Source: an uncultured Sterolibacterium sp. (GTDB lineage: Bacteria > Pseudomonadota > Gammaproteobacteria > Burkholderiales > Rhodocyclaceae). From it: a DNA stretch of 64,000 nt. The notes under the pieces were generated by a model. The model was not told the DNA's origin, did not search any database, and saw nothing but the letters and a program-made list of their open reading frames with translations. The stretch is taken from positions 1 to 64,000 of the forward strand of contig CAILCO010000124.1 of the NCBI GenBank assembly GCA_903832735.1. The letters are read 5' to 3'. Each line of letters opens with the position of its first letter. The first letter of the stretch is position 1. Positions 9,358-35,573 of this stretch are shown piece by piece. The position numbers and the translations under genes are program-made.

Positions 9358-9361
<4 letters not shown>
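8897..9361 (+). CDS. paaI: PaaI-type hotdog thioesterase
   Basis: A 154-aa single hotdog domain. The PaaI signature VNGHGICHGGFIFTLADCAF is present, with the catalytic Asp in LAD. PaaI hydrolyses ring-hydroxylated phenylacetyl-CoA and related aryl-CoAs to recycle CoA. I choose the GTG at 8897 (reads VTPQQTPQQIAE as in PaaI N-termini); the frame is open from 8756 but that part is not protein-like. The stop overlaps the thiolase ATG (ATGA). The divergent gap 8745-8896 must hold promoters for both directions, but I cannot pick hexamers with confidence. Confidence 0.85.
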
Positions 9362-10563
<1,202 letters not shown>

Positions 10564-10576
10564 CGAGGATAGCCTT

Positions 10577-11884: not shown

Positions 11885-11906
11885 CCAAGTAAGCAAAAAC
11901 CATCCG

Positions 11907-12449
11907 ATGAAACAACTCGAACTCGCCACCCTGGGCGGCGGCTGCTTCTGGTGCACCGAGGCAGTCTTCGACAGCCTCGCCGGCGTCCACGAGGTGGTCT
12001 CGGGCTATTGCGGCGGCCACGTCAAGGAACCTAGCTACGAGCAAATTTGCACCGGCGATACCGGCCACGCCGAGGTGGTGCAGATTCTTTTCGATCCGGA
12101 GCTTATCGGCTACCGCGAATTGCTCGCGGTGTTTTTCGCCATCCACGACCCGACCACGCTAAATCGCCAGGGCCATGATGTCGGCAGCCAGTACCGCTCG
12201 GCGATCTTCACCCATAGCGCGGAGCAGGATGCCGACGCCCGGGAGACGATTGCCGCGCTGACCGCTGCCGGCGCCTTTGCTCATGCGATCGTCACCGAGA
12301 TCGTTCCGGCCGCGACTTTCTGGCCGGCTGAGGATTACCATCAGGAATACTTCGCCCAGCACCAGCGGCAAGCTTACTGTCAGTCGGTGGTGGCGCCGAA
12401 GCTGGCGAAATTCCGCGCAACCTTCCGCCAGAAGTTGAAGCAGGACTAG
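11907..12449 (+). CDS. msrA: Peptide methionine-S-sulfoxide reductase
   Basis: A 180-aa protein with the MsrA catalytic signature GGGCFWCTEAVF (nucleophile Cys13), the GYCGG block, the GHAEVVQI segment and a C-terminal Cys (AYCQSVV) that can act as resolving cysteine. It reduces methionine-S-sulfoxide in proteins with thioredoxin. It follows paaK by 22 bp without an obvious ribosome site, so it is probably a passenger of the operon rather than part of the pathway. Confidence 0.95.
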   Translation: MKQLELATLGGGCFWCTEAVFDSLAGVHEVVSGYCGGHVKEPSYEQICTGDTGHAEVVQILFDPELIGYRELLAVFFAIHDPTTLNRQGHDVGSQYRSAIFTHSAEQDADARETIAALTAAGAFAHAIVTEIVPAATFWPAEDYHQEYFAQHQRQAYCQSVVAPKLAKFRATFRQKLKQD

Positions 12450-12458
12450 GAACAGAAA

Positions 12459-12917
12459 ATGACTACGGAAACGAAAAAGGACATCTTCTACAGCGACATG
12501 CTGGTACGCTTTTCGCACTGCGACCCGGCCGGGATCATCTTCTATCCGCACTATTTCGTGATGTTCAACGGGCTGGTGGAAGACTGGTTCAATCACGCCC
12601 TGGAAATCAACTACGCGGACTTCATCACGACCAGGCGGATGGGGCTGCCGATGGTCAATATCCAGTGCGACTTCGTCGCCCCCTCGAAGATCGGCGAAGT
12701 CATCACCCTGACGCTCAAGCTCGAACGCATCGGCAACAGTTCGCTCAAACTGGTGGTGCAAGCACTCCTCGACAATCAAACAAGGATCACGGCGCAACTG
12801 ACGCTATGCGTCTTTTCCTTTGAAACCAAGCGCGCCGTACCCATCCCCGACGATCTGCGCCAGCGCCTCAGCGATTTCCAGCAGGGTAAACTCGACCACC
12901 CCTGGCGCCAGGCGTAA
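12459..12917 (+). CDS. 4-Hydroxybenzoyl-CoA-thioesterase-like hotdog thioesterase
   Basis: A 152-aa hotdog protein. The motif RFSHCDPAGIIFYPHYF near residues 15-31 contains the Asp-Pro-Ala-Gly active-site loop of the 4-hydroxybenzoyl-CoA thioesterase family (Asp at about 20). It would hydrolyse an aryl-CoA or short acyl-CoA ester. It is last in the paaI-thiolase-paaK-msrA run, and the next gene (pobA) consumes free 4-hydroxybenzoate, so 4-hydroxybenzoyl-CoA is an attractive but unproven substrate. Confidence 0.8.
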   Translation: MTTETKKDIFYSDMLVRFSHCDPAGIIFYPHYFVMFNGLVEDWFNHALEINYADFITTRRMGLPMVNIQCDFVAPSKIGEVITLTLKLERIGNSSLKLVVQALLDNQTRITAQLTLCVFSFETKRAVPIPDDLRQRLSDFQQGKLDHPWRQA

Positions 12918-12919
12918 AG

Positions 12920-12935
12920 CCGCGAGCACTCGCGG
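12920..12935 (+). terminator. Possible terminator hairpin after the paaK operon
   Basis: CCGCGAG / CTCGCGG arms lie right after the thioesterase stop codon. The loop is short and there is no T-tract, so this is only a stem that could contribute to termination. Confidence 0.3.
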
Positions 12936-12958
12936 GCGAAAGTCCGCGGGAGGAAATC

Positions 12959-13010
12959 TTGCAATCCGGCCGGGCTCATGATACTTTTAACTGAATGAAT
13001 GATCATTCAG
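12959..13010 (+). promoter_or_regulatory. pobA promoter with TetR-type operator
   Basis: A candidate promoter TTGCAA (12959-12964), 15-bp spacer, GATACT (12980-12985) is followed 5 bp later by the operator CTGAATGA-ATGA-TCATTCAG (12991-13010), a perfect inverted repeat with 4-bp spacer. The same hexamers, spacer lengths and operator occur in front of the SDR gene (29032-29083), and the operator again at 30324-30347. Binding near +1 would repress. The likely binder is the TetR protein of 26668-27393. Confidence 0.7.
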
Positions 13011-13035
13011 CTAAAACATGGCCCGATGCGCGTGA

Positions 13036-14298
<1,263 letters not shown>

Positions 14299-14404
14299 AC
14301 TGTTTATTATCGAGACGCTTTCTGTCATCATGCGCTGCCTGCCGCCCAGGCAGGCCGTCAAGCAGAAATATATCTGCCGCCTTCAGACTATAGAGGAGAG
14401 ACCC

Positions 14405-15583
14405 ATGAACAAGTTTTTGAACCGACTATCCGCCTTGCTGGCCGCCTTCACGCTGGCCTGGACGGCTCAGCCCGCCCTCGCGCAGGAGGTGATCAAGATC
14501 GGCGTGATCCTGCCGCTGACCGGCCCCTATGCCGACTACGGCGAGGAGATCGGCAACGGCCTCAAACTCTACATGAAGCAAAACGGCGACACGGTCGCCG
14601 GCAAGAAGATTTCCATCATCATCCGCGACGACACGGGTATCGCCCCCGAGGTGTCGAAGCGGCTGGCGCAGGAATTCCTGGTGCAAGACAAGGTGGATAT
14701 TCTGGCCGGCTTCGGCCTCACCCCCAGCGCCTTGGCGGTGGCGCCCCTGGCGACCCAGGCCAAGAAGGCGATGGTGATCATGAACGCGGCGACTTCAGTG
14801 ATCACCACCAAGTCTCCCTATATCGTCCGCCTCTCCCACACCCTGCCGCAGATCTCCGCACCGATGGCGACCTACGCGGCGAAGCAGGGCATCAAGAAGG
14901 TCTATACCCTGGTCGCCGACTTCGGTCCCGGCATCGATGCCGAAACAGCCTTCAAGAAAGCCTTCGAAGCCACGGGCAACAAACTCATCGGCGGGGTTCG
15001 GGTGCCGGTGACCAATGTCGACTTCGCGTCGTATATTCAGCGGATCAAGGATGCCGCCCCCGAGGCCGTCTTCCTGTTCCTGCCGCCGGGCAGCGCCACC
15101 ATCTCCTTCCTCAAGGCCTACAAGGAACGCGGTCTGGACAAGGCCGGCATCATCCTGCTCGCCACTGTCGATTTCGCCGACGACAACCTGATGGATGCCC
15201 TGGGCACATCGGTACTCGGCCTGGTCAGTTCGGGCCACTATTCCGCGGCGCACGACTCACCGATGAACAAGGCCTACGTCCAGGCTTATGTCGCCGCCTA
15301 CGGCACCAAGATGCGGCCGAACTTCATGTCGGTGGCCGGCTACGACGGCATGGCGGCGATCTATGCGGCACTGAAGAAGACCAACGGCGATGCCGACGGG
15401 GACAAGCTGGTCGCGGCGATGAAGGGGCTGCAATTCGAGAGTCCGAGAGGCCCGGTGATGATCGATCCGGAAACCCGCGACATCATCCAGACCGTCTACT
15501 ACCGTCGTGCCGAGGAAAAGAACGGCAAGCTCTACAACATCGAATTCGACCAGATCAAGAATGTCAAGGATCCGGGCAAATAA
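14405..15583 (+). CDS. Branched-chain amino acid/aromatic acid-type ABC importer, periplasmic binding protein
   Basis: A 392-aa protein with a Sec signal peptide (MNKFLNRL then a hydrophobic stretch to ALAQ, cleavage before EVIKIG). The mature part is a type I periplasmic-binding fold of the LivK class (IGVILPLTGPYADYG). It lies 22 bp before livH and would hand its ligand to the LivHMGF importer. Next to pobA the ligand may be an aromatic acid instead of an amino acid; this is inference from context. Two close relatives lie at 30460-31650 and 31730-32887. Confidence 0.9.
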   Translation: MNKFLNRLSALLAAFTLAWTAQPALAQEVIKIGVILPLTGPYADYGEEIGNGLKLYMKQNGDTVAGKKISIIIRDDTGIAPEVSKRLAQEFLVQDKVDILAGFGLTPSALAVAPLATQAKKAMVIMNAATSVITTKSPYIVRLSHTLPQISAPMATYAAKQGIKKVYTLVADFGPGIDAETAFKKAFEATGNKLIGGVRVPVTNVDFASYIQRIKDAAPEAVFLFLPPGSATISFLKAYKERGLDKAGIILLATVDFADDNLMDALGTSVLGLVSSGHYSAAHDSPMNKAYVQAYVAAYGTKMRPNFMSVAGYDGMAAIYAALKKTNGDADGDKLVAAMKGLQFESPRGPVMIDPETRDIIQTVYYRRAEEKNGKLYNIEFDQIKNVKDPGK

Positions 15584-15604: not shown

Positions 15605-16474
15605 ATGCTCAACTTTCTCGGCTTGCTGTTCGACGGTCTGGCCTACGGCACCCTGCTCTTCCTGATCTCCGTCGGTCTGTCGGTGACGCTCGGCCTGATG
15701 GGCTTCGTCAATCTGGCCCACGGTGTTTTCGCCATGCTCGGCGGTTATCTGCTGGTCACCTTGATGGGCCGCCTGGGCTTCGGCTTCCTGACCGCCCTGC
15801 CGCTGATCTTTGTTGCCGTCGCCTTGATCAGCCTGGTACTGGAGCGCAGCCTTTACCGCCCCTTTTACAAGAAGACCCACCTCGAACAGGTGCTGCTCAC
15901 GGTCGGAATCATCTTTGTCGCGACGGCCGGCGCGACCTATTTCTGGGGGCCAGGGCAGCAGCCGATCGAGATACCGGTATGGATGAAAGGACAGCTCAAT
16001 CTGGCCGGCGTCGATCTCTCGCGCTATCGTCTGTTCCTGATGGCGGTAGGCACGGCGATTACCCTGCTGCTGGTCTTTGGCCTGGAGCGCACGCGCTTCG
16101 GCGCGCGGGTCCGCGCCTCGGTCGAGCGCCAGCGCACCGCCGAGTCCATGGGCATCCATGTCGAGCGTGTCTTCCAGATCACTTTCGCCCTGGGCAGCGG
16201 CCTGGCCGGCCTGGGCGGCGCGCTCGGAGTGGACGTGCTCGGACTCGATCCCTACTTCCCGCTCAAATATCTCGTCTATTTCCTGCTGATCGTCGTCGTC
16301 GGCGGCCCCGGCTCGGTGATCGGCACACTGAGCGCAGCGCTGCTCCTGGGCGTTGCCGACACCGCCGGCAAGTATTACATCCCTTCGACCGGCGCCTTCG
16401 TGATCTACGTGGCCATGATCGTCCTGCTGCTACTGTTCCCGCAAGGCCTGCTCGGGCGGAGGAAGGAAATATGA
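15605..16474 (+). CDS. livH: ABC importer permease, LivH family
   Basis: A 289-aa inner-membrane permease with about eight helices, beginning MLNFLGLLFDGLAYG and carrying the family motif GLMGFVNLAHGVFAMLGGY. The cytoplasmic coupling segment (RASVERQRTAESMGI) is conserved. It pairs with LivM; the stop overlaps the livM start (ATGA). Confidence 0.93.
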   Translation: MLNFLGLLFDGLAYGTLLFLISVGLSVTLGLMGFVNLAHGVFAMLGGYLLVTLMGRLGFGFLTALPLIFVAVALISLVLERSLYRPFYKKTHLEQVLLTVGIIFVATAGATYFWGPGQQPIEIPVWMKGQLNLAGVDLSRYRLFLMAVGTAITLLLVFGLERTRFGARVRASVERQRTAESMGIHVERVFQITFALGSGLAGLGGALGVDVLGLDPYFPLKYLVYFLLIVVVGGPGSVIGTLSAALLLGVADTAGKYYIPSTGAFVIYVAMIVLLLLFPQGLLGRRKEI

Positions 16475-17487
16475 ACATCCGCACCGAATCCGTTCGCGCG
16501 CCAGGCTATCTGGCGACGCTCGCAGCCCGAGAGCGCTGGGGCCGTAGCGAAATCGCCTTCTGGCTAGTCCTGGTCGCGGTGTATTTCCTGCTGCCCAACA
16601 ATCTGATGTTTGCCTCGCAGATCTTGATCACCGGCCTGTTTGCCCTATCGCTCGATCTGATACTCGGTTACGCCGGCATCGTCACCCTGGGTCATGCGGC
16701 GTTTTTCGGCCTGGGCGCCTACACCGCCGGCCTGTTGACCAAGACCGGCTACACCGAACCGGCCTCGGGCCTCATGGTCGCTGGCCTGGTGGCGGGCGCG
16801 TTCGGCTACCTGTCCAGCTATCTGGTGTTGCGCGGCCGGGATCTGTCGCGCCTGATGATCACCCTGGGGATAGGCCTCCTGCTCTACGAAGTCGCCAACC
16901 GAGCGACCGACATCACTGGCGGCGTCGATGGCTTGCAGGGCATAGCGGTGGGCAAGGTGTTCGGCCTGTTCGCTTTCGACCTGTATGGCAAGACCGCCTA
17001 CCTTTATGTCCTGGTGGTCTCCTTCCTGCTGTTCGTCATGGTCCGCTCGCTGATGACCGCTCCTTATGGCCTGTCCCTGCGCAGTATCCGTGAAAACCAG
17101 CAGCGCGCCGTGGCCATCGGCATTCCGATCCGCGCACGCCTGACCAACATCTACACGCTCTCGGCGGTGATCGCCGGCATTGCCGGGGCGCTGCTCACCC
17201 AGACCACGCAATTCGTCGCGATCGACGTCTTCGCCTTTCAGCGATCGGCGGACCTGCTCATCGTCCTCTTGATCGGCGGCACCGCCACCTTGTACGGCGG
17301 CTTCGTCGGCGCGGCCGTCTTCCTGCTTGCGCAGGACTGGCTGTCGAGCATCAATGCCGAGTACTGGCTGTTCTGGCTGGGCCTGCTGCTGATCATCACC
17401 ACGCGTTATCTGCGCACCGGCGTGATGGGCGGCCTGAAGAGCCTGCAGCGTCTTGCGGCACGCGCCAAACCGGGGGAAGAATCATGA
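16471..17487 (+). CDS. livM: ABC importer permease, LivM family
   Basis: A 338-aa permease with about ten helices. The family motif LILGYAGIVTLGHAAFFGLG and the coupling loop SLRSIRENQQRAVAIGI are present. The ATG at 16471 has a strong GGAGGAA site and overlaps the livH stop; the frame is open much further upstream but only as a shadow of livH. The stop overlaps the livG start. Confidence 0.93.
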   Translation: MNIRTESVRAPGYLATLAARERWGRSEIAFWLVLVAVYFLLPNNLMFASQILITGLFALSLDLILGYAGIVTLGHAAFFGLGAYTAGLLTKTGYTEPASGLMVAGLVAGAFGYLSSYLVLRGRDLSRLMITLGIGLLLYEVANRATDITGGVDGLQGIAVGKVFGLFAFDLYGKTAYLYVLVVSFLLFVMVRSLMTAPYGLSLRSIRENQQRAVAIGIPIRARLTNIYTLSAVIAGIAGALLTQTTQFVAIDVFAFQRSADLLIVLLIGGTATLYGGFVGAAVFLLAQDWLSSINAEYWLFWLGLLLIITTRYLRTGVMGGLKSLQRLAARAKPGEES

Positions 17488-18245
17488 GCGCGGTGCTGAG
17501 AACCCAGGACTTGTGCAAATCCTTCGGCGGCCTCAAGGTCACGCAGAACGTCAACCTGTCCCTGGAAGTAGGCGCCCGGCACGCCCTGATCGGCCCGAAC
17601 GGCGCCGGCAAGACGACGCTGATCAACCAGTTGACCGGCGTGCTGCGGCCATCCTCCGGTTCGATCTGGCTGGACGGCGAGGACATCTCCAAGATGCCGC
17701 CCTATGAGCGGGTCAGGCGGGGCCTGGCGCGAACCTTCCAGATCAATTCGCTGTTCCCCAACCTCTCTCCGCTGGAAGCCGTGACGGGCGCAATCTGCGA
17801 GCGTCAGCGCGACCACCTGAGTGTCTTCGAGCGCCGCTTCTTCCGCCTCACGCACCGCCGCGCCGAGATCGACGAGGCCTATGAACTGCTCGAACGCCTC
17901 AACCTCGCCAAGGACTGCATGCGCGAAACGCGGGAGCTCGCCTACGGCAAGCAACGCCTGCTCGAAATGGCCCTGGCGCTCGCGGTCAAGCCGAAAGTGC
18001 TGCTCCTCGACGAGCCTGCGGCCGGCGTGCCCGAGGGCGAAAGCGACGAGCTCCTGGCGGTGCTCGCCGAACTACCCAAGGACATCAGCATCCTGCTGAT
18101 CGAACACGACATGTCGCTGGTGTTCCGCTTCGCCGACCGGATCACGGTGCTGGTCAGCGGCACACAACTGGTATCGGGCACGCCGGCCGAGATTGCCGAA
18201 GACCCACGCGTCCAAGAAGTCTATCTGGGCAAACACCATGGCTGA
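17484..18245 (+). CDS. livG: ABC importer ATPase, LivG family
   Basis: A 253-aa ATP-binding subunit. Walker A is GPNGAGKTT, the Q-loop region is RTFQINSLF, and Walker B is KVLLLDEPAAGV. The signature loop reads LAYGKQRLLEMA, in the LivG style. It works with LivF as a heterodimer on the LivHM permease. Confidence 0.93.
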   Translation: MSAVLRTQDLCKSFGGLKVTQNVNLSLEVGARHALIGPNGAGKTTLINQLTGVLRPSSGSIWLDGEDISKMPPYERVRRGLARTFQINSLFPNLSPLEAVTGAICERQRDHLSVFERRFFRLTHRRAEIDEAYELLERLNLAKDCMRETRELAYGKQRLLEMALALAVKPKVLLLDEPAAGVPEGESDELLAVLAELPKDISILLIEHDMSLVFRFADRITVLVSGTQLVSGTPAEIAEDPRVQEVYLGKHHG

Positions 18246-18945
18246 AATGCTCACAGTCGAAAATGTCTTCGCCGGTTATGGCGATGCCACCGTGCTCGAC
18301 GATTGCTCGTTCTCGATGCAGGAGGGCGAGAGCCTCGCGCTCCTGGGGCGCAACGGCGTCGGCAAGAGCACCCTGCTGATGACCCTGATGGGTCACACCC
18401 GGGTGCATCGCGGCGCGATCCGCTGCTTCGGCGAGAATCTGGTGGACATCCCGACCCATCTGCGCACCGGCAAAGGCCTGGGCTGGGTGCCGCAGGAACG
18501 GGAAATATTCGCCTCGCTCTCCGTCGAGGAAAACCTCTCGGTCACCGCTCGCCCGGGCAAGTGGGATCTCGCGCGCATCTACACGCTGTTCCCCGGCCTG
18601 AAGGAACGCCGCAAAAACTGGGGCAATGAACTTTCCGGCGGCGAGCAGCAGATGCTGGCGATAGGCCGCGCGCTGATGCTCAATCCCAAGCTATTGCTAC
18701 TCGACGAACCCTTGGAGGGACTGGCGCCGGTGATTGTCGATGAACTCTGCAGCGCCATCGGGCACATGGTCGCAGAGGAGGGCCAGGCGCTGATCCTGGT
18801 CGAGCAGCATGTCGAGCAGGCACTACGTCTGACCAACCGCTGCCTGGTGCTGGAGCGCGGCAGCGTGGTGCACACCGCCGATAGCAAGCAACAACTGCAG
18901 AACCTTTCCCAGCTCGACAAGTGGGTCGGCGTCCGCCTGCACTGA
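18238..18945 (+). CDS. livF: ABC importer ATPase, LivF family
   Basis: A 235-aa ATPase with Walker A GRNGVGKST, signature LSGGEQQMLAIGRAL and Walker B KLLLLDEPLEGL. The chosen ATG at 18238 overlaps the end of livG by 8 bp. It completes the set of binding protein, two permeases and two ATPases that starts at 14405. Confidence 0.93.
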   Translation: MAEMLTVENVFAGYGDATVLDDCSFSMQEGESLALLGRNGVGKSTLLMTLMGHTRVHRGAIRCFGENLVDIPTHLRTGKGLGWVPQEREIFASLSVEENLSVTARPGKWDLARIYTLFPGLKERRKNWGNELSGGEQQMLAIGRALMLNPKLLLLDEPLEGLAPVIVDELCSAIGHMVAEEGQALILVEQHVEQALRLTNRCLVLERGSVVHTADSKQQLQNLSQLDKWVGVRLH

Positions 18946-21175: not shown

Positions 21176-22609
21176 ATGAAATTATTCGAACCGCTAGACA
21201 TCAATGGCATGGTGATTCCGAATCGCGTGATGGTTCCCGCCATGGTGACCCACCTATGCGAAGAGGGCGGCATGGTCAACGACGCCGTGATCGAGCGCTA
21301 TGCCGCCTATGCCGCAGGCGGTGCGGGACTGATCGTGGTCGAGGCGATGGCCGTGCACCAGAATAAGTCGGGCGCCCTGCTGCGCGCCAGCGAGGACAGA
21401 TTCATTCCAGGGCTGCGCGAACTGACGCGGCGGGTGCATGAAACGTCCGACTCCAAGATCGTGCCGCAGATCATCCATTTCATGAAGGTGGCGCGCACCG
21501 GCTGGCGCCAGACGATAGACACGCTGTCGACGGAGGAAATCGCCACCATCGTCGAACAGTTCGGCGCGGCGGCGGCGCGCGTTCAGGAAGCGGGTTTCGA
21601 CGGCGTCGAGTTGCACTCGGCGCATGCCTATACCCTGTCCTCCTTCCTCTCGCGCACCAATCCGCGCAAAGACGAGTATGGCGGCGACACGCTGGAGGGT
21701 AGGCTGACGCTGATCGGGCAGGTGATGGCGAATGTCAGGCGCCGCGTCGGCAAGAACTTCCCCGTCTGCGTCCGTTTCAACGCCGAGGAATTCATCAAGA
21801 ACGGCTATACCGTGCAGGAATCGAAACTGATCGCGCAGCGCTTCGCTGAACTGGGATTCGATTACCTGTCCTTGTCGGCGGGCGGCAAGTTCGAGGACGC
21901 GGTGCATACGCCGGGGGCGGTGCTGTTCCCCTATTCCGGCTACTCCGGCGACCGCTGCATGCCGGGCCAATGGCTGCCGCGCGGACTGCACGTGAACCTG
22001 GCCGCCGAGATCAAGGCGCACCTCGTCGCCCGTGGTTTCAAGACGCCGGTCGCCATCGCCGGAAAGTTGTCCGATCCCGTGGACGCGGAAGCGCTGCTCG
22101 CGCGCGGCGAGGCCGACATGGTGGCGATTGCCCGCGGCCTACTCGCCGATCCTGCCTGGACCAACAAGGTCAAGAACGGCCAGGTCGAGAGCATCGTGCA
22201 GTGCGACTATTGCAACGTCTGCAAGCAGCTCGATGGCACGCACAAGCCAGTCATCTGCGCGCTCTGGCCCCAGGGCTCGCTGCAGGCGCCGAAGGAGAAT
22301 TCTGCCGCCCGGGCGCCCGAATGGGGTGCCGACGGTGCCGGCTTGAGCGCAACGCTAACCGGAACGACTGTTTCCCTGCGCTGGAGCAAGGCCCCGGGAG
22401 CCGCTGGTTACGATATCTATCGCAGCACCGACGAAGGACAGGCGCAATTTCAGGATGCGGCGAAGCTGACGAAATGGGCCGACAAATGCGTCCTCGGCGG
22501 CCAGCGCTACCGATACCAGGTCAGGCCCCGCAGCACATCGGGCCTGGCGGGCATCCCTGTCGCGACGGAAGTGGAATTTCCCCTGCCCGGGTACATGGCA
22601 GCGAAATGA
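21176..22609 (+). CDS. Old Yellow Enzyme-family NADH:flavin oxidoreductase with 4Fe-4S motif and C-terminal fibronectin-III-like domain
   Basis: A 477-aa protein. Residues 1-340 are an OYE-type TIM barrel with the active-site segment ELHSAHAYTLSSFLSR (His147, His150) and the RTNPRKDEYGG loop. Cysteines 343, 346, 349 and 361 (CDYCNVC ... C) match the 4Fe-4S site of trimethylamine dehydrogenase and 2,4-dienoyl-CoA reductase. The FAD/NADPH domain that follows in those roughly 670-aa enzymes is absent. Instead residues about 385-470 look like a fibronectin-III fold (VSLRWSKAPGAAGYDIYRS). AGGAG precedes the ATG. It probably reduces an enoyl or dienoyl substrate; the electron donor is unclear. The CoA-type ligase follows 44 bp later. 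Confidence 0.85.
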   Translation: MKLFEPLDINGMVIPNRVMVPAMVTHLCEEGGMVNDAVIERYAAYAAGGAGLIVVEAMAVHQNKSGALLRASEDRFIPGLRELTRRVHETSDSKIVPQIIHFMKVARTGWRQTIDTLSTEEIATIVEQFGAAAARVQEAGFDGVELHSAHAYTLSSFLSRTNPRKDEYGGDTLEGRLTLIGQVMANVRRRVGKNFPVCVRFNAEEFIKNGYTVQESKLIAQRFAELGFDYLSLSAGGKFEDAVHTPGAVLFPYSGYSGDRCMPGQWLPRGLHVNLAAEIKAHLVARGFKTPVAIAGKLSDPVDAEALLARGEADMVAIARGLLADPAWTNKVKNGQVESIVQCDYCNVCKQLDGTHKPVICALWPQGSLQAPKENSAARAPEWGADGAGLSATLTGTTVSLRWSKAPGAAGYDIYRSTDEGQAQFQDAAKLTKWADKCVLGGQRYRYQVRPRSTSGLAGIPVATEVEFPLPGYMAAK

Positions 22610-22653
22610 TCCATGCCCCGGCGTATTGGCCGGGCTAGCAAGAGAGGATGAAG

Positions 22654-24284
22654 ATGCTGGAAGGATGCGTTGCCTGGCCTGAGGATTTCGCACGGCGCTA
22701 TCGCGAACAGGGTTACTGGGAGGACGCCACCTTGTTCGAGGTGCTGTCCCATACCGCGGCGCTGTTCCCGGACAAGTTGGCCGTGGTCGACGGCACTCGC
22801 CGCATTTCCTATGCGCAGTTGCGCGACGCGGTCCTGCGGCTCGCAACAGGGCTGGCGACACTGGGACTGCGTCCAGGCGAGCGGGTGATCTTCCAGCTCG
22901 ACAACAGCCTCGAATTGATCGTGAGCTTCTTTGCCCTCTGTCGCCTGGGCGTGATTCCGGTTTTGGCTTTGCCCGCCCATCGCCGGACGGAAATTGCCCA
23001 TTTCGCCCGTGCCAGCGGCGCAGTGGCGCTGTTCATACCCGACCGGGTACGCAACTTCGACTATCGTGAAATGGCCCGGGAAGTGGTGGCGCTATGCCCG
23101 ACCCTGCGCCAGGTCATCGTATCCGGGCAAGCCGAGGCCGATCAAGTGGCGCTGACGATGCTCTCCGAAAGTCAGGCGGAAGGGCAAGCCGCGATGCCTC
23201 TGCCCAAGGCCGGTGATGTGGCGCTGATGCTGCTCTCGGGCGGCACGACCGGTTTGCCGAAGCTCATTGCGCGAACTCACGCCGACTATATCTACGGCTC
23301 GAAGCAAAGTGCCAAGGTGGCCGGCTTCGGAACGGACACGGTGTTTCTCGCCCTGTTGCCGATCGCCCACAACTATACCCTGGGCGCGCCCGGCGTCCTC
23401 GGCACGATCGCCTGCGGCGGCACTACGGTGGTCTCGCCCGGCACGGCGGCGGAGGTGGTGTTTCCGCTGATCGACCGGGAAGGCGTGAGCGTCCTCAGCG
23501 CGGCGGTGCCGCTGGTGGCGAAGTGGTTGGGTTCGGACCTGTTCGGCCGCCACGACTTCGCGACACTGAAGGTTTTCATGAACGGCGGCGCCAAGCTGGT
23601 GCCGGAACTCAGGCAGAGGGTCGAGGAGAAATTCAACTGCCTCTACCAGGAGAGCTTCGGCACTGCGGAAGGACTGCTCAACATGACGCGCCTTTACGAT
23701 CCCGAGCATGTGCGCATGAACAGTTCCGGCCGGCCGGTCTCCGACGGTGACGAAATAAGGATAGTCGACGCCGCGGGCAATGATCTTCCGGACGGGCGGG
23801 CGGGCGAATTGCTGGTGCGCGGACCCTACACCATACGCGGCTATTACAACGGTTCGGAAAACAACCAGAAGGCATTTACCGCGGATGGCTTTTACCGCAT
23901 GGGAGATGTCGTCAGCAAAGTCGATGGCAATCTCTACCTTGAAGGCAGGATCAAGGATTTGATCAACCGGGGCGGCGAGAAGATCAGTTCGGAGGAGATC
24001 GAGAACCACATCCTGGCGCACCCGGAAATCGAATCGGCTTGTGTCGTGGCCATGCCAGACCCGGTATTCGGCGAAAAAGCCTGCGCCTTCACCATCCTCC
24101 GCCAGAATTGCGCCCTGACGCTGGCACAACTCCTGGCTTTCCTGCAGACGCGCGAAATCGCGCGCTTCAAGATGCCCGAACGGTTGGAGGTCGTCGAGGA
24201 ATTCCCCATCAGTCCGGCCGGCAAGATCCTGCGGGCCCGCCTCCGCGAGGCGGTGGCGGAGAAAATCCAGCAGGAGACTGCCCT

Positions 24285-24288
<4 letters not shown>
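22654..24288 (+). CDS. EntE/DhbE-like aryl-acid AMP/CoA ligase
   Basis: A 544-aa adenylate-forming enzyme. The N-terminus (WPEDFARRYREQGYW) is characteristic of 2,3-dihydroxybenzoate and salicylate adenylases. The ATP loop is LLSGGTTGLPKLI, and the C-terminal catalytic Lys is in SPAGKILRARL. The aryl pocket keeps the HNY triad and GGAKL loop of DhbE, but the position of DhbE Ser240 reads Ala (HNYTLGAPG). No siderophore carrier or synthetase genes are near. It more likely makes an aryl-CoA for catabolism, for example of salicylate or 2-aminobenzoate. ATG 22654 is preferred for spacing to GAGAGG. Its stop overlaps the convergent ligase gene by 4 bp. Confidence 0.82.
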
Positions 24289-25904
<1,616 letters not shown>

Positions 25905-25915
25905 GCTCACTACTT

Positions 25916-26671
25916 TCACTCCTTTTCCAGAAATCGGCGTACGCGCTCCTGGGTGTCCGCCGTGCCGAGCAGCATCTTGCTGCCCGCAAGCTCGACTTCG
26001 TACCCCTGGTCACTGCCGGAAGCCGCCACGCCTATGCATTCCTTGCAGGCGGCGAGCGCCTGCTTCGGCAACTTGGCAATCCGCTCCACCAGTGCCCGCG
26101 TACTCTCCTGCAATTCTTTCGCCGGCGCCACCCACTGGGCGAGTCCGAGCGCTACGGCATCGGCGCCTGCGACAATTTCGGCGCCCAGGATCAGGCGGCG
26201 GCTGATCGCCTCGCCGCACAGCCGGGTCATCCGTTGCGTCCCCCCGGCCGCGGGCAAGAGCCCCAGCCTCGCCTCGGGCAAACCGATCCTGGCGCTGTCG
26301 GCAACGAAGCGCAGATCGCAGGCCAGCGCCAATTCGAAACCGCCGCCCAGGGCCGCGCCACCGATCTCGGCGACGCTGACCACGCCGATCCGCTCCAGCC
26401 GCGCATAGACCTCCTGCAAGCGGCGGGTGAAAGCGATCATCCGCTCGCGCCCCTCCTCGGTCAGAAACCGCGCCCGCATGAACTCCAGATCGGCGCCGGC
26501 GCAGAACACCCGCTCGCTGCTGCGCAGCCAGAGCACGGCAACGTCCGGGGCCTGTTCGATCTCGGTTAGCACCTCGTCAAGCCGAGTCAACCATTCGTCG
26601 TTGATGGCATTGACCGGAGCCCGGCACAGGGTTGCGACGGCGATCGCGCCGTCGATGGCAAGTGAAATCAT
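25916..26671 (-). CDS. Enoyl-CoA hydratase/isomerase (BadK-like candidate)
   Basis: A 251-aa crotonase. Both catalytic glutamates of enoyl-CoA hydratase are in place: one in GGGFELAL and one in LPEARLG, and the oxyanion-hole loops (CAGADL, GGAALGGG) are intact. It should hydrate a 2-enoyl-CoA, here plausibly cyclohex-1-ene-1-carboxyl-CoA. It overlaps the TetR gene by 4 bp upstream and the ligase gene downstream. Confidence 0.88.
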   Translation of the reverse strand: MISLAIDGAIAVATLCRAPVNAINDEWLTRLDEVLTEIEQAPDVAVLWLRSSERVFCAGADLEFMRARFLTEEGRERMIAFTRRLQEVYARLERIGVVSVAEIGGAALGGGFELALACDLRFVADSARIGLPEARLGLLPAAGGTQRMTRLCGEAISRRLILGAEIVAGADAVALGLAQWVAPAKELQESTRALVERIAKLPKQALAACKECIGVAASGSDQGYEVELAGSKMLLGTADTQERVRRFLEKE

Positions 26672-27393
26672 TTTGTCTTGGCGCGGGCGGATGGCCGCTT
26701 GTCGTGTTTGAAATTGCCGGTGTTGCGCCGCATCGTCGCCAGCGCCGCACGGCCCTTGGTCGTGAGAAAGGGTTCTACCAGAAGCTTGAGGCCTTCGGAG
26801 ACATACTCCGAGGGCGACAGCTTGTCCAGAAACGCCCAGTTCTTCAGCGCCCAGGCATGGCAGAACATCACCACCTGATAGACCAGCAGATACTCATTCA
26901 CCTGGCGCATGTAACCGCCCGCGATGCACGCCCGCAGGCAACCTTCGAGCAGGCGATTGCTTCTGATCTCTTCGTCCTTGATCAGGCTGCGCCGATCGGG
27001 ACGCAGCGAGTTGGTCGAGCGGTAGGCCAGCACCGTCGCCTCGCGCAGCCGATCGACGATGGCGCAATATGCCCAGATGGCCATGCACAGCCGCTCCACG
27101 GGATGCTTGATGCCCTCAAGGCGCAGGGGGATCTCGGTCTCATAGGTTTCCAGGACGAGTTTCAGCGAAAGCAGCAGAATGTCGTCCTTGTCGCCGAAGT
27201 ACTGGTAAATCAGGCCGATGCTCACCCCGGCTTCGCGGGCGATCTGGGCGATAGTGGTGGTGTAGTAGCCCTGCGTCGAAAACAGCTTGACCGCGGCGCG
27301 CAGGATCTGGCCGCGCCGCTCCTCGATCAGCTTGCTGTCGGTGACCAGGCTATCGACCTGTCCCGGTGACGCAGTCTGCTTCACCACCCTCAT
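26668..27393 (-). CDS. TetR-family transcriptional regulator
   Basis: A roughly 241-aa regulator. The N-terminal helix-turn-helix is clear (FSTQGYYTTTIAQIAREAGV then SIGLIYQYFGDKDDIL). The C-terminal domain resembles acyl-CoA-responsive TetR proteins but its ligand is unknown. It is embedded in the catabolic operon. Three matching operators at 12991, 29032 and 30324 are its probable targets. The start is unsure: ATG 27393 has GGGAGG almost touching it, whereas GTG 27387 is better spaced. Confidence 0.88.
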   Translation of the reverse strand: MRVVKQTASPGQVDSLVTDSKLIEERRGQILRAAVKLFSTQGYYTTTIAQIAREAGVSIGLIYQYFGDKDDILLLSLKLVLETYETEIPLRLEGIKHPVERLCMAIWAYCAIVDRLREATVLAYRSTNSLRPDRRSLIKDEEIRSNRLLEGCLRACIAGGYMRQVNEYLLVYQVVMFCHAWALKNWAFLDKLSPSEYVSEGLKLLVEPFLTTKGRAALATMRRNTGNFKHDKRPSARAKTK

Positions 27394-27417
27394 GCCTCCC
27401 GCGGGACTCAACCGGCC

Positions 27418-28265: not shown

Positions 28266-29012
28266 TCAGCCGGCCAGCACCAGTCCGCCGCAAACGCTCA
28301 GGACTTGGCCGGTGACGAAGCTGGCCCGATCGCTGGCGAAGAACAGCACGGCGTCGGCGACTTCTGAGGGTTTGCCCAGGCGGCGCATCGGCGTGGCGCG
28401 GATAAAGGCTTCGCGATGCTTCTCAGGCACGGCGGCGAGCAGCGGCGTGTCGGTCGGACCGGGGCAGACGCAGTTGACGTTGATGTTGTAGCGCGCCGTC
28501 TCGCGCGCCAGGCTCTTGCTGAAGGCAATGGCGCCGCCCTTCGCGCCGGAATACACGGTTTCGCCCAGGCTGCCGACACGTCCGGCGTCGGAGGCCACCG
28601 TGACGATCTTGCCGGCACCTTTTTCGATCATCTTGTCGAGGAAGGCACGGCTCACCATCACCGGTCCCATCAGGTTGATGTCCACCACCTTGCGCCAGAA
28701 GTCCGGGGTATTCTCGACGAAAGGCTGGATCTTGCCCCAGCCGGCGACATTGACCACGATATCGACGTGACTGCGCGCGGCATAGGCCTTGCCGGCAAAA
28801 TCGGCGACCGAAGCGAGGTCGGTGACATCGAGGCGGAAGAAGTCAGCACCCTGACCGCGGCCGCGGATCTCGGCGACTGTCGCGGCGCCGCCTTCCTCGT
28901 TGAGATCGCCCAACACGACATGGGCACCCGCCGCCGCCATCACCTCGGCCACCGCCCGCCCGATGCCGGAAGCCGCCCCTGTCACCACCGCTGTTTTTCC
29001 GTCTAGCCGCAT
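28266..29012 (-). CDS. Short-chain dehydrogenase, 2-hydroxycyclohexanecarboxyl-CoA dehydrogenase (BadH)-like
   Basis: A 248-aa SDR with the NAD motif TGAASGIGRA, NVAGWG, catalytic Ser in VASDAGRVGS, YSGAKGG (Tyr and Lys) and the C-terminal VTGQVLSVCGGL. The ASDAGRVGS, YSGAKGG and CPGPTDT blocks closely follow BadH, which oxidises 2-hydroxycyclohexanecarboxyl-CoA to the 2-keto ester. ATG 29012 has GAGGT at the right distance; an in-frame GTG at 29018 does not. It heads the operon SDR-crotonase-TetR-crotonase-ligase, under the promoter at 29032-29083. Confidence 0.85.
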   Translation of the reverse strand: MRLDGKTAVVTGAASGIGRAVAEVMAAAGAHVVLGDLNEEGGAATVAEIRGRGQGADFFRLDVTDLASVADFAGKAYAARSHVDIVVNVAGWGKIQPFVENTPDFWRKVVDINLMGPVMVSRAFLDKMIEKGAGKIVTVASDAGRVGSLGETVYSGAKGGAIAFSKSLARETARYNINVNCVCPGPTDTPLLAAVPEKHREAFIRATPMRRLGKPSEVADAVLFFASDRASFVTGQVLSVCGGLVLAG

Positions 29013-29031
29013 TTTCACACCTCAAGTAAAG

Positions 29032-29107: not shown

Positions 29108-30286
29108 TCAACCGGCGCCGGCCGAAAATTCCTTGATCGCCTGTCGGCCGATGATCAGCTTCTGCACTTCGGTCGCGCCCTCGTAGATTCGCAGGGCGCG
29201 GATTTCCCGGTACAAGCGCTCCACCGGCATGCCCGACTTGACGCCGAGGCCGCCGAACAGCTGCAACGCACGATCGATTACCTGCTGCGCCGTTTCGGTG
29301 GCGACCATCTTGGCCATCGCCACTTCGGCGGTGGCTGGAACGCCCAGGCAGTCGCGCATCCAGGCCGCCCGGTAGGTCAAGAGAGCGCTCGCGTCGATGC
29401 CCGTCGCCATGTCGGCGAGCGCCGCCTGGGTAAGCTGAAAATCGCCCAGGGTCTGGCCGAACATCTTGCGGCTGACGGCGCGCTCGAGAGCCGCTGCCAT
29501 GGCGTGGCGTGCGAAGCCGACCGAGGCGGCGGCTACGCTGGTGCGGAAGATGTCCAGGGTCTGCATCGCCAGTTTGAAGCCGGAACCCGCCTTGCCCAGC
29601 AGATTCGCCGCCGGCACCCGGCAGTTGTCGAAGCGCAGCGTGGCCAGCGGATGCGGTGCGATGACCGGGATCTTCTCGGCGATGGACAATCCGGGCGTAT
29701 CGGCATCGATCACGAAACCCGAAATGCCGCGACTGCCAGGCGCCTCGCCGGTTCGCGCAAAGACGCAATAGAAGTCGGCAATGCCGCCGTTGGAGATCCA
29801 GGTCTTCTCGCCGTCGAGCACGTAGTCGTCGCCGTCCCTGCGTGCCGTCGCGGCGAGTGCGCCAACGTCCGAGCCGGCATCGGGTTCCGACAGTGCGAAG
29901 GCCGCGATGAGCTTGCCCGCAGCGACCTGCGTCAAGTATTTGCGTTTCTGTTCGACCGTGCCGCCGATGGAGATGGCGCCACTGCCCAGGCCCTGCATGG
30001 CAAAGGCGAAATCGGCCAGGCCGGAGCGCTTCGCGAGATTTTCCCGCAACAGGCAGAGCGAGCGGACATCGATGGCATCGAGCGCGCCGCCGTACTCCTT
30101 GGCCACGCAATACCTCAACCAGCCGGCCTCGCCCAACCGGGCAACCAGGGAACGGCAGAGCTGTTCGACGTCCTCCGCCCCTTCCGCCCCTTCCTCATGC
30201 AATTGGTCCGCGGCCCAGGCATCGAGATCCCGCGCCAGGGTTCGGTGGCCGTCATTGAAAAATGGCCAAGACAGACTGTCATTCAT
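29108..30286 (-). CDS. Acyl-CoA dehydrogenase (cyclohexanecarboxyl-CoA dehydrogenase candidate)
   Basis: A 392-aa flavoprotein with the ACAD signatures [23 protein letters not shown] and the C-terminal [17 protein letters not shown]. It would oxidise an acyl-CoA to the 2-enoyl-CoA using FAD and pass electrons to ETF. In context it supplies the AliB step, cyclohexanecarboxyl-CoA to cyclohex-1-ene-1-carboxyl-CoA. ATG 30286 has GGGAG upstream; the frame opens earlier (30337) but that lies inside the operator region. It is transcribed on its own promoter, 95 bp before the SDR gene. Confidence 0.87.
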
Positions 30287-30323
30287 TCCATGCTCCCGTG
30301 CCGACATCAGGGTCGTCGGCGTT

Positions 30324-30347
30324 GACTGAATGATCACTCATTCAGTC
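30324..30347 (-). promoter_or_regulatory. TetR-type operator at the acyl-CoA dehydrogenase promoter
   Basis: GACTGAATGA-GTGA-TCATTCAGTC on the minus strand, a perfect 10-bp inverted repeat with 4-bp spacer and the best of the three operator copies. It overlaps a candidate promoter TTGACT-N17-GATCAT, lying between the -35 and -10 boxes and over the latter, which would block RNA polymerase. Confidence 0.75.
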
Positions 30348-30459: not shown

Positions 30460-31650
30460 TCAGCTGCTGCCGGGATCCTTGTAGTTTTCGACCTTGTCGA
30501 ACTCGACGTTATACATGGCGCCATTGACCATCTCCGCCCTGCGGATATAAACGTTCTGGATAATGTCCCGGGTCGCCGGGTCGATGCTGACCGGGCCGCG
30601 CACGCTCATCCAGCTCATGCCCTTCATCGCCGCGACCAGGGCGTCGCCGTCGGTATTGCCATTGGTCTTCTTCAGCGCTTCGTAGATCAGATGCATGCCG
30701 TCATAGCCGCCGACAGAATGGAAGTTGGGGCGCATGCCCTTGGAAAGCTTCATGAACTCCTCGACGTAGGCCTTGTTTTCCGGCGAAGGATGGGCCGCGG
30801 AATAGTGGTGGGAAGTCACCACGCCCAAAGGCGCCATCCCCATGCTCGGCAACAGGTCGTCGTCGAGCACGTCGCCGGTGCCGATCAGCTTGATGCCGGC
30901 GGCGGCGAGGCCCCGCTCGACGAACTGTTTCATCACTGCCGTACCCGGGCCCGAGGGCACGAAGACGAACAGCGCGTCGGGCTTGCTGTCCTTGACACGC
31001 TGGATGAAGGGAGAGAAATCCGGATTCTGCAAGGGCACCCGCAGGCTCTCCAGAACCTTGCCGCCGCTTTCCGTGAAGCGCTTGACGAAGACCTTTTCCG
31101 AATCGATTCCCGGCGCGTAGTCGGAGACCATGGTGATGACCGTCTTGATCTTGTTCTTCACCGCCCACTCGGCCATCGGCGCGGTGATTTGCGGTACGGT
31201 GAAGCCGCTACGGACGATGTACGGAGAACGCTGGGGAATGATCGAGGTCGCCGCGGCCATGACGATCATCGGAACCTTCGCCTGGGTGGCGATCGGTGCG
31301 GCGGCGAAGGCCAGCGGCGTCAGGCCGAAGCCGGCGAGAAAATTGACATGGCTGTTGACCACCAGTTCCTGGGCCAGGCGCTTGGTGACATCAGGCTGCA
31401 AGCCGCCATCGTCCTTGAGCAGGATCTCGACCTTACGGCCGAGGACGGAGTCGCCGTATTTCTGCTGATATAGCCGGACCGCGGTGTCGATCTGCCGGCC
31501 GGTCGAGGCGAATGGGCCGGACATCGGCAGGATCAGCCCTACCCTGAACGGATCGGCCGCAAGGGCGAAACGCGGCATGAGTCCTGCGGCCACCGCCGCG
31601 GCGCCGCCGGCGACCAGCAGCCGGCGATGGATATTGAAGGGTTTGTTCAT
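30460..31650 (-). CDS. LivK-class periplasmic binding protein (second copy)
   Basis: A 396-aa secreted protein. The signal sequence contains an Arg pair (HRRLLVAGG) and a long hydrophobic stretch ending FALAAD, so it may use Tat or Sec. The mature protein is a type I binding fold (FRVGLILPMSGPFASTG). It is a paralogue of 14405-15583 and 31730-32887. No permease is adjacent, so it may serve the LivHMGF set at 15.6-18.9 kb. Located next to the acyl-CoA dehydrogenase, its ligand may be an alicyclic or aromatic acid. Confidence 0.88.
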   Translation of the reverse strand: MNKPFNIHRRLLVAGGAAAVAAGLMPRFALAADPFRVGLILPMSGPFASTGRQIDTAVRLYQQKYGDSVLGRKVEILLKDDGGLQPDVTKRLAQELVVNSHVNFLAGFGLTPLAFAAAPIATQAKVPMIVMAAATSIIPQRSPYIVRSGFTVPQITAPMAEWAVKNKIKTVITMVSDYAPGIDSEKVFVKRFTESGGKVLESLRVPLQNPDFSPFIQRVKDSKPDALFVFVPSGPGTAVMKQFVERGLAAAGIKLIGTGDVLDDDLLPSMGMAPLGVVTSHHYSAAHPSPENKAYVEEFMKLSKGMRPNFHSVGGYDGMHLIYEALKKTNGNTDGDALVAAMKGMSWMSVRGPVSIDPATRDIIQNVYIRRAEMVNGAMYNVEFDKVENYKDPGSS

Positions 31651-31729
31651 ATTGTCTCCTCACGTAAGTAAACCAATTTTGCGCTGCTCATCAAGTATAG
31701 CGTCGAAGTCAGGATGGGGCGGATCGTCA

Positions 31730-32887
31730 TTACTTGCCGGGATCCTTGACTGCTTCCAACTTGTCGAACTCGACGTTATAGAGCTTGCCATCGACCTTCT
31801 GGACGCGGCGGATATAGACATTCTGGACGATGTCGCGGGTCTCCGGATCGATCATGATAGGACCGCGCGGGCTGTCCAGCTTCATGCCCTTCAGGGCCGC
31901 CATGATCTTGTCGCCATCGGTGCTGCCATTGGTTTTCTTCAGCGCGCCGTAGATCGCCGCCATGCCGTCATAGCCCGCCACCGCCATGAAGTTGGGACGC
32001 ATCTTGGCGTCGATTTCGGCATAGCCCTTGACGAAGGCCTTGTTCAAGGCCGAGTCGTGCGCCGCCGAGTAGTGATGGCTGGTGATCACGCCCAGCGCCG
32101 AGTCGCCCATGGCCTCGATGACGTCGTCGTCGGTGACGTCGCCGGTGGCGATCAACTTGATCCCGGCCTTGTCCAGGCCGCGCTCGACGAAGCCCTTCAT
32201 GAAGGCCACGCCCTGCTCACCGGCGGGCAGGAAGATGAACACCGCCTCCGGCTGGCTGTCCTTGATGCGTTGCAGATAGGGCGAAAAGTCCGGGCTCTTC
32301 AGGGGCACCCGCACCTCGCCGACGATCTGCCCGCCGGCGGCGCTGAAGGTCTTCTTGAACTGGCCTTCGGCGTCATGTCCCGGGCCGTAATCGGAAACCA
32401 AAGTGTACACTTTCCTGATGCCATTCTTCGCCGCCCAGGTCGCCATCGGCGCCGTCACCTGCGGCAGGGTGAAGGAGAGCCGCGCGATGTAGGGCGACTT
32501 GGTGGTGATGATCGAGGTCGCCGCGTTCATGATGATCATCGGCTTCTTCGCCTCGGTCGCCAGCGGCGCAGCCGCGAGGCCGTTGGGCGTGAGCCCGAAG
32601 CCGGCCAAGATATCGACCTTGTCCTTGACGATCAATTCTTGGGCGTGACGCTTGGTGACTTCAGGCGCCGGCCCGGTATCGTCGCGCAGCAGCAGTTCAA
32701 TCTTCTTGCCGGCGACCTTGTCCCCCTGTTGCTTCATGTAGAGTCTGATGCCGTTTTCGATCTGCTTGCCGTAATTGGCGAAAGGCCCAGACATCGGCAG
32801 GATCACGCCGATCTTGACGCTCTCCTCGGCGCTGGCGGGCAGCGCAATGGCGGTAGCCAAAGCGGTGAGTAGGATGCTGAGTTTCAT
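31730..32887 (-). CDS. LivK-class periplasmic binding protein (third copy)
   Basis: A 385-aa protein with a clear Sec signal (MKLSILLTALATAIALPASA then EESVKIG). It is closer to the 14405 paralogue (shared INAATS.ITTKSPYI and ATDGDKI-type segments) than to its neighbour. ATG 32887 is preceded by GAGGAG; a longer frame to 32923 adds no signal-like residues. It lies upstream of the 30460 gene on the same strand, 79 bp apart. Confidence 0.88.
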   Translation of the reverse strand: MKLSILLTALATAIALPASAEESVKIGVILPMSGPFANYGKQIENGIRLYMKQQGDKVAGKKIELLLRDDTGPAPEVTKRHAQELIVKDKVDILAGFGLTPNGLAAAPLATEAKKPMIIMNAATSIITTKSPYIARLSFTLPQVTAPMATWAAKNGIRKVYTLVSDYGPGHDAEGQFKKTFSAAGGQIVGEVRVPLKSPDFSPYLQRIKDSQPEAVFIFLPAGEQGVAFMKGFVERGLDKAGIKLIATGDVTDDDVIEAMGDSALGVITSHHYSAAHDSALNKAFVKGYAEIDAKMRPNFMAVAGYDGMAAIYGALKKTNGSTDGDKIMAALKGMKLDSPRGPIMIDPETRDIVQNVYIRRVQKVDGKLYNVEFDKLEAVKDPGK

Positions 32888-32952
32888 GGTCGGTCTCCTC
32901 GGTTGAAATGGCTCAGTTTGCATTAGCCGGCATTACCCGGCATCAGGCGGAT

Positions 32953-33606: not shown

Positions 33607-33629
33607 GCCCTAATTCACGTCGCGGCGGT

Positions 33630-34322: not shown

Positions 34323-34353
34323 GGTTTAACCTTTTCGATTAATGAATGCATTT

Positions 34354-35370: not shown

Positions 35371-35573
35371 CGATCGATCCTTGTCTGGGTCAAGTCCGCC
35401 AGTCAGCCCCGCCTGCGCTGCAGGGCGGCAGTTTGCATATTCTGCCACAAAGTCACATTGACGCCCTGGAATGCACTGCCTGCGCCATTTTTGCCCTTCA
35501 GCAGCTTGTCTAGCAGCCCACCTAGCACCCCATTTGATATTAAGCATATTCCCCTGCCCCAAAGTTTAGTATA

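Follow-up and report, generated by a model that had tools for sequence, protein, structure and literature searches.

An FAD-less protein of the Old Yellow Enzyme type with a four-cysteine Fe-S site and a C-terminal fibronectin type III domain, encoded beside an AMP-forming ligase

2,4-Dienoyl-CoA reductase continues from its Old Yellow Enzyme (OYE) barrel and Fe-S site into an FAD/NADPH domain, and the DNA considered here raises the question of what a protein might do that carries the barrel and the Fe-S site and ends in a different domain. The window, i.e. the whole stretch of 64,000 nucleotides analysed, is derived from an uncultured Sterolibacterium sp. (contig CAILCO010000124.1); the protein (P0001, 477 aa) is encoded at 21176..22609 on the plus strand, as assigned from the open reading frame, Pfam and AlphaFold2. 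The original prediction had described an OYE barrel, an Fe-S site formed by Cys343, Cys346, Cys349 and Cys361, and a final domain of approximately 85 residues resembling fibronectin type III (fn3); the reading frame, its length and the four cysteine positions proved correct in the translation, in which cysteine occurs at positions 28, 198, 261, 343, 346, 349, 361 and 438. The following parts, all on the plus strand, were delimited: an OYE-type FMN barrel (approximately residues 1–340, 21176..22195, from Pfam and residue counts), the Fe-S site C343-x2-C346-x2-C349-x11-C361 (22202..22258) and the fn3 domain (approximately residues 387–468, 22334..22579). That the protein consists of these three parts and has no FAD/NAD(P)H domain is practically certain.

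The barrel was recognised by Pfam Oxidored_FMN (PF00724) with 154.7 bits against a curated cut-off of 27 (5.1e-45); beyond it, Pfam returned a weak Dus overlap alone (0.0039). NCBIfam gave eight matches at E<=0.001, each of them under its own cut-off, so no curated NCBIfam name applies to the protein. Relatives were collected by scanning exact peptide patterns over genome contigs, a method that reaches close relatives only, and 76 loci were obtained. L006, L012, L067, L069, L071 and L073 were omitted from the set of relatives' proteins, and L011 and L075 were trimmed to 520 aa. In an alignment (A1) of the window protein with those of 49 of the 76 loci, the fn3-less L074 among them, Q98, H101, H147, H150, Y152, R200 and the four cysteine residues of the Fe-S site are invariant in all 50 rows. 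The spacing of this site is CxxCNxC, as in trimethylamine dehydrogenase, which was also the best PDB match of residues 285–369 (1.6e-8), followed by 2,4-dienoyl-CoA reductase (9.4e-8), histamine dehydrogenase (3e-7) and naphthoyl-CoA reductase (9.2e-7). The full AlphaFold2 model, prepared from a 50-row alignment of the window and locus proteins, reached a pLDDT of 87.4 and a pTM of 0.88, with residues 239–244 and 248–257 poorly defined. Structural comparison of the model with PDB entries gave Z scores of 45.8 for naphthoyl-CoA reductase (6qkg), 44.5 for trimethylamine dehydrogenase, 43.3 for histamine dehydrogenase and 42.9 for 2,4-dienoyl-CoA reductase (1ps9), reductases and amine dehydrogenases lying near one another. 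No FAD/NAD(P)H domain was found after the Fe-S site of the 477-aa protein with Pfam, AlphaFold2 or Foldseek.

Seven strands (391–395, 398–402, 411–418, 424–429, 433–436, 443–452 and 462–468) were predicted for the C-terminal region in the full model, and seven strands were again obtained, with a pLDDT of 90.4, when the domain was folded alone from 25 rows. The best PDB matches of the isolated domain in Foldseek were 5g56 (2.5e-5, a multi-module arabinoxylanase) and 3mpc (4.4e-5, an Fn3-like protein), with many fn3 domains ranking next, and a profile of 25 such C-termini matches 3mpc at 2.3e-10. Pfam fn3 (PF00041) was found at E<=0.1 in 13 of the relatives' 25 domains (best 1.2e-5) and GH85_C in 12 (best 1.4e-5); for the domain of the window protein itself, Pfam returned nothing at E<=0.1. 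Near-invariant residues of the domain include R416, K430 and D436. The fibronectin III fold proposed for the last 85 residues or so is therefore borne out by AlphaFold2, Foldseek and the 25-member profile, and the structure prediction recommended at the outset placed a seven-strand fn3 domain at approximately residues 387–468 in the full model and in the domain alone. The ranges aligned to the structural relatives extend to residue 460, which merely hints that fn3 might sit where their FAD domain does. To our knowledge, soluble catabolic flavoenzymes seldom carry an fn3 domain. The protein is a variant of the OYE-FeS kind; a search of the open-access literature for a combination of OYE and fibronectin type III returned no description of it, absence from that literature being weak evidence.

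The search for the same fusion in other genomes, also recommended at the outset, was successful: a domain profile built from 25 of the carriers detected fn3 at E<1e-5 in 74 of the 77 proteins encoded in the window and at the 76 loci, and the carriers include the isolates Roseiarcus fermentans and Paramagnetospirillum caucaseum. The three remaining proteins are L012, whose frame ends after 76 residues, yet whose tblastn match spans residues 1–471; L073, whose reading frame leaves the contig end; and L074, the sole genuine short form among the 77. According to their record titles, the 76 loci belong to Alphaproteobacteria, Betaproteobacteria or taxa inside these two groups, to Proteobacteria without further detail and, in two cases, to Deltaproteobacteria. 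The occurrence of the protein is patchy: it was detected in 3 of 199 genomes of the window's family, the window's own included, in 1 of 274 genomes of the window's class (its own), and in 15 of 289 genomes drawn from the class of G225, the alphaproteobacterial genome that holds L029 and formed the centre of this draw. For G565, which is among these 15, the contig ends at residue 372 of the match, before the fn3 domain. P. caucaseum has two OYE-fn3 copies (L020 and L076) on one contig (NZ_AONQ01000038.1), with a ligase gene 6.5 kb and a RidA gene 8.1 kb downstream of the L076 copy.

With regard to the origin of the domain, 18 of 198 genomes from a phylum draw around the L074 genome gave matches at E<=1e-50, and four of the 18 (that of L074 among them) encode a version of 376–395 aa, with 47–50% identity, which ends shortly after the Fe-S site. 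All four keep the CxxCxxC motif, and neither an fn3 nor an FAD domain was found in them. A tree was calculated from the window protein, the proteins of 19 further fn3 loci (out of 73) and 21 rows serving as outgroup. The 20 fn3 rows form one clade (100/99) and share one 100/100 branch with these four short relatives (rows L114–L117); across that branch lie 13 long rows together with 4 short ones in which CxxCxxC is absent. The tree was midpoint-rooted, L117 was flagged as a long branch, and the outgroups were derived from one phylum draw plus one row from the window's own genome, so other lineages may alter the result. Since the nearest fn3-less relatives also have no FAD domain, the fn3 domain was probably added to a protein that was already FAD-less, and on the basis of this one tree a single gain on an FAD-less OYE-FeS ancestor is well supported. 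The statement that fn3 stands in place of the FAD domain should accordingly be amended; a direct swap of one for the other is not favoured, L114–L117, the nearest tree rows, having the Fe-S motif and neither of the two domains.

The adjoining gene provides the first indication of function. An AMP-forming ligase of 546 aa (22648..24288, plus strand) starts 38 bases past the stop of the OYE-fn3 gene; its nearest match is (2,3-dihydroxybenzoyl)adenylate synthase, under cut-off with 556.9 versus 723.55 bits. When the loci with at least 800 bases downstream (n=74) were searched by tblastn with two reference ligases, an AMP-forming ligase was found on the same strand within 200 bases downstream in 50, and 22 had no adjacent ligase by these thresholds. 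In L011 and L075, OYE-fn3 and ligase form one frame of 1032–1034 aa, which carries OYE and AMP-binding Pfam domains with the fn3 region between them. These two are sister rows (99/97) in a separate tree, among its fn3 rows only, and may for this reason stem from one fusion event. The link to an acyl- or aryl-CoA ligase, which had been raised as a possibility, is substantiated by the 50 of 74 loci and the two direct fusions. The type of ligase varies by locus between one resembling the dihydroxybenzoate-AMP ligase and the benzoate-CoA ligase family, and L024 has both. The fn3-less relatives also have a ligase, directly downstream in L134, L135 and L136 and two genes upstream in L074, and an SDR and an acyl-CoA dehydrogenase are likewise located near the short form in L134, L135 and L074; of these neighbourhoods, that of L135 was confirmed by Pfam, and the others were assigned by BLAST to neighbour clusters or to L074.

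On the minus strand of the window follow a second acyl-CoA ligase (24285..25919; nearest cyclohexanecarboxylate-CoA ligase, under cut-off with 662 versus 792.3), a protein of the enoyl-CoA hydratase family (25916..26671, by family profile), a TetR-type regulator (26668..27411; best matches BetI and FadR, all under cut-off) and three recurrent neighbours: an enoyl-CoA hydratase family protein PRK08258 (27418..28236; 479.4 bits, cut-off 330), an SDR dehydrogenase (28266..29018; nearest 2-hydroxycyclohexanecarboxyl-CoA dehydrogenase BadH, under cut-off with 254.4 versus 431.2) and an acyl-CoA dehydrogenase family protein (29108..30337; best matches acryloyl-CoA reductase and cyclohexane-1-carbonyl-CoA dehydrogenase, both under cut-off). 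Genes of a branched-chain-amino-acid-type ABC transporter (15605..18945, plus strand, from ORFs and Pfam) comprise a permease within 15979–17487 and ATP-binding proteins at 17484–18245 and 18193–18945 (all by Pfam) and a further permease at 15605–16474 (by position only), with a binding protein upstream within 14054–15583 (plus strand, ORFs and Pfam). Within approximately 10 kb, PRK08258 was found at 23 of 77 loci, acyl-CoA dehydrogenase at 28 and a RidA-type protein at 7, counts that are lower bounds because many loci are cut by contig ends; SDR, MarR regulator and branched-chain-type ABC transporter genes were also found. Neighbour genes were taken from codon-model calls in GC-rich DNA and tblastn counts. 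Among the representatives of neighbour clusters 1–28, of which clusters 13 and 16 gave no Pfam match, no flavodoxin, ferredoxin or FAD reductase was recognised.

Further genes of the window were recorded as follows. At 32953–35562 (minus strand) lie gentisate 1,2-dioxygenase (525.8 against a cut-off of 442.1), a fumarylacetoacetate hydrolase family protein (under cut-off) and maleylacetoacetate isomerase (over cut-off), with a MarR gene divergent from them at 35607–36107 (plus strand). Between 24285 and 35562, every called gene is on the minus strand, which would be compatible with a single operon. The gentisate genes could mean another substrate; gentisate degradation was left out of the explanation because no gentisate gene was recognised in the general annotation of the representatives of neighbour clusters 1–28. 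Two adjoining periplasmic binding protein genes (Peripla_BP_6) are located at 30460–32923 (minus strand), with no permease gene called beside them, and genes for 3-oxoadipyl-CoA thiolase, phenylacetate-CoA ligase PaaK and 4-hydroxybenzoate 3-monooxygenase, all over cut-off, are located at 9358–14298 (plus strand).

A second indication is provided by PRK08255 (NF006101; also named salicylyl-CoA 5-hydroxylase), which consists of an FAD monooxygenase half and an OYE half and which we take to cover 2-aminobenzoyl-CoA monooxygenase/reductase. In the draw of 289 genomes from the class of G225, it was found (E<=1e-200) in 14 of the 15 genomes with the OYE-FeS-fn3 protein versus 38 of the 274 without it (Fisher 1e-10, the test ignoring shared descent); with the centre G225 excluded, the count was 13 of 14 (5e-10), and with G565 excluded as well, 12 of 13 (3e-9). 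The converse fails, 38 of the 52 PRK08255 genomes being without the OYE-FeS-fn3 protein. The genomes of 50 of the 76 loci were covered: 36 exceed the curated cut-off of PRK08255, 7 more (G205, G206, G220, G221, G227, G230 and G231) show matches that are large but partial or slightly too low for the cut-off, and the remaining 7, one of them the genome of the fn3-less L074, have no large match. Within the class to which the window belongs, the cut-off is exceeded by 12 of 274 genomes. The chemistry of the protein need not depend on PRK08255, because 6 of the 49 genomes with the fn3 form have no large match and none was found at E<=1e-100 in the four fn3-less genomes. PRK08255 is located in the same locus as OYE-fn3 in L026, L029, L040 and L055; in L097, from the genome holding L059, PRK08255, SDR, MarR, PRK08258 and acyl-CoA dehydrogenase stand in a row with RidA divergent; and PRK08255 of the window's genome was found on another contig, together with RidA and a relative of the benzoate-CoA-type ligase. 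Membership of the OYE-FeS-fn3 protein in a PRK08255-type pathway is somewhat favoured by these associations.

Several observations accompany this association. In the window's genome, a gene of the aldehyde:ferredoxin oxidoreductase family (L093:15317-17227), which conceivably relates to low-potential electrons, lies near PRK08255 and RidA, and a stand-alone homologue of the PRK08255 monooxygenase half (G000:C38:2077-3195, in L094) was found with 398.3 bits in an open frame of 391 aa; similar matches to this N-terminal half occur in other locus genomes. In L010 (L010:77-12177), OYE-fn3 and ligase are followed by a stand-alone monooxygenase of the PRK08255 N-half type (382 aa) and by a 657-aa OYE of full length that includes a Pyr_redox domain; genes upstream encode a Mo protein of the xanthine dehydrogenase type and a further AMP-binding protein. 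The genome of L010 (G207) gave no full-length PRK08255 at E<=1e-100, an absence that is weak in a metagenome assembly.

From these findings, a working model was assembled in which the protein acts on a cyclic CoA thioester as an FMN/[4Fe-4S] ene-reductase within a pathway of the 2-aminobenzoyl-CoA type, with a separate electron donor and the fn3 domain as docking module; taken as a whole, we regard it as evenly balanced. The protein, probably cytoplasmic, would carry FMN in the barrel and a [4Fe-4S] cluster at the four-Cys site, and would share a branch with 2,4-dienoyl-CoA reductase, naphthoyl-CoA reductase and trimethylamine dehydrogenase. The adjoining ligase would make an aryl- or alicyclic-CoA thioester, and the barrel FMN would pass a hydride to a ring C=C bond of this thioester or of a later pathway intermediate, with Tyr152 as putative proton donor and the conserved H147/H150 pair serving alongside it. 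These roles are presumed by analogy with OYEs, and the three residues fit OYE-type ene-reduction. Because the ligase linkage points to it, a CoA thioester is the likely substrate; the 2-aminobenzoyl-CoA-type route is suggested by the PRK08255 association, with PRK08255 monooxygenase/reductase, enoyl-CoA hydratase, acyl-CoA dehydrogenase, SDR and RidA, which acts on enamines, as possible pathway partners. A link between aminobenzoyl-CoA and old yellow enzyme was not found in the open-access literature, where absence weighs little.

Since the FAD domain is missing, either a separate donor or direct reduction by NAD(P)H is needed. A separate carrier, which would deliver electrons via the Fe-S cluster, appears slightly the better choice. 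In related Fe-S flavoenzymes, electrons enter through FAD, or leave to an electron-transferring flavoprotein (ETF), via the cluster, according to PMC6502838; a separate donor has a precedent in short BilR, an FAD-less OYE barrel that, according to PMC10769871, is encoded with the flavodoxin-like BilS, which is thought to be involved in electron transfer. For the fn3 domain, the role of a protein-docking module is proposed tentatively; a partner reductase or the ligase would be plausible as the docked protein, and the ligase would be the simplest choice, given that in both fusions the fn3 region separates OYE from ligase. Extending this proposal, OYE-fn3 might be the reductase half of a ligase–reductase assembly, with the cytoplasmic fn3 domain as a metabolon scaffold rather than an extracellular adhesion module, and might catalyse the reduction of a ring, either following the action of the reductive half of 2-aminobenzoyl-CoA monooxygenase/reductase or replacing this half as a split counterpart. 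The gene order in L010 (OYE-fn3, ligase, PRK08255-N-half monooxygenase) is suggestive of this extension, which we nevertheless consider rather unlikely.

The alternative to a separate donor, an ordinary ene-reductase whose FMN is reduced directly by NAD(P)H as in classical OYEs, with the Fe-S site as a structural relic and fn3 stabilising the protein or its oligomer, is the strongest competitor, although unlikely. The sequence matches of the barrel include solved OYEs named NADPH dehydrogenase, H147, H150 and Y152 are retained, and a donor gene was not recognised among the recurrent neighbours represented in clusters 1–28. A relic is at odds, however, with the retention of the four cysteine residues in 50 of 50 rows (L074 included) and of CxxCxxC in 4 of 4 fn3-less relatives, which argues for a working cluster, and a merely stabilising domain with the near-invariant fn3 residues, such as R416, K430 and D436. 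Operation in the oxidising direction, i.e. a dehydrogenase passing electrons from FMN through the Fe-S cluster to an ETF as in trimethylamine and histamine dehydrogenases, is regarded as improbable. The CxxCNxC spacing and the best local match of the Fe-S segment (trimethylamine dehydrogenase, 1.6e-8) are in its favour, as are cluster-to-ETF transfer in such enzymes, described in PMC6502838, and acyl-CoA dehydrogenase as a common neighbour (28 of 77 loci). Against it, the window protein lacks the C-terminal nucleotide-binding domains that those enzymes possess, and 2,4-dienoyl-CoA reductase and naphthoyl-CoA reductase score about as well. A CoA-ligase context is, moreover, typical of reductases rather than amine dehydrogenases. 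A frameshift in the assembly or a gene fragment concealing an FAD domain, which had been named as a possible cause and for which the odd architecture is the sole support, is excluded for practical purposes by the relatives, since 74 of 77 proteins from many assemblies, those of R. fermentans and P. caucaseum included, have the same fn3 end. In the window, no FAD domain follows in the 38 bases before the ligase start.

The preferred reading, that of a ligase-linked ene-reductase with a separate donor, would extend the OYE-FeS enzymes by an FAD-less group associated with CoA ligases, and would render the electron supply of such enzymes testable on a small protein. If the protein acts after 2-aminobenzoyl-CoA monooxygenase/reductase, it is a candidate gene for the steps beyond that enzyme, which are covered merely as 'enzymes of beta-oxidation' in the excerpted part of a review (PMC4539516).

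In comparison with known systems, the protein shares with 2,4-dienoyl-CoA reductase of E. coli (1ps9, Z 42.9) the OYE barrel and the four-Cys Fe-S linker, and differs from it by the missing FAD/NADPH domains, by CxxCxxC in place of CxxCxxxC and by the added fn3 domain. Type III aryl-CoA reductases (2-naphthoyl-CoA reductase, 6qkg, and 2-phenanthroyl-CoA reductase), which reduce an aryl-CoA ring without ATP, gave the top structural Z (45.8 with 6qkg), and the window gene stands in a CoA-ligase context. These enzymes contain FMN, FAD and [4Fe-4S] according to PMC6502838 and PMC12093976, whereas the window protein, having no FAD domain, does not show this three-domain make-up. Trimethylamine and histamine dehydrogenases correspond in the CxxCNxC spacing, the best segment match and Z scores of 44.5 and 43.3, but have C-terminal nucleotide-binding domains that the window protein lacks, and the latter is found in a CoA-pathway context. 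Short-form BilR with BilS is also an OYE barrel without FAD domain; the window protein, however, reaches only 137.6 versus 425 bits with NF045592, has SGDR but no HGDR, and carries fn3. It is also under the cut-off of the bile-acid flavoenzyme BaiCD (NF041087, 210.2 versus 825 bits). PRK08255 contains an OYE domain and would likely belong to the same pathway, but combines it with an FAD monooxygenase half; the window protein reaches 145.5 bits against a cut-off of 1078 (NF006101), and CxxCxxC is absent from all 10 PRK08255 rows checked (two partial). Because the C-terminal domains of 2,4-dienoyl-CoA reductase, type III aryl-CoA reductases and trimethylamine dehydrogenase were searched for and not found, the OYE-FeS-fn3 protein is not placed in these families as defined, although it may work like one of the three.
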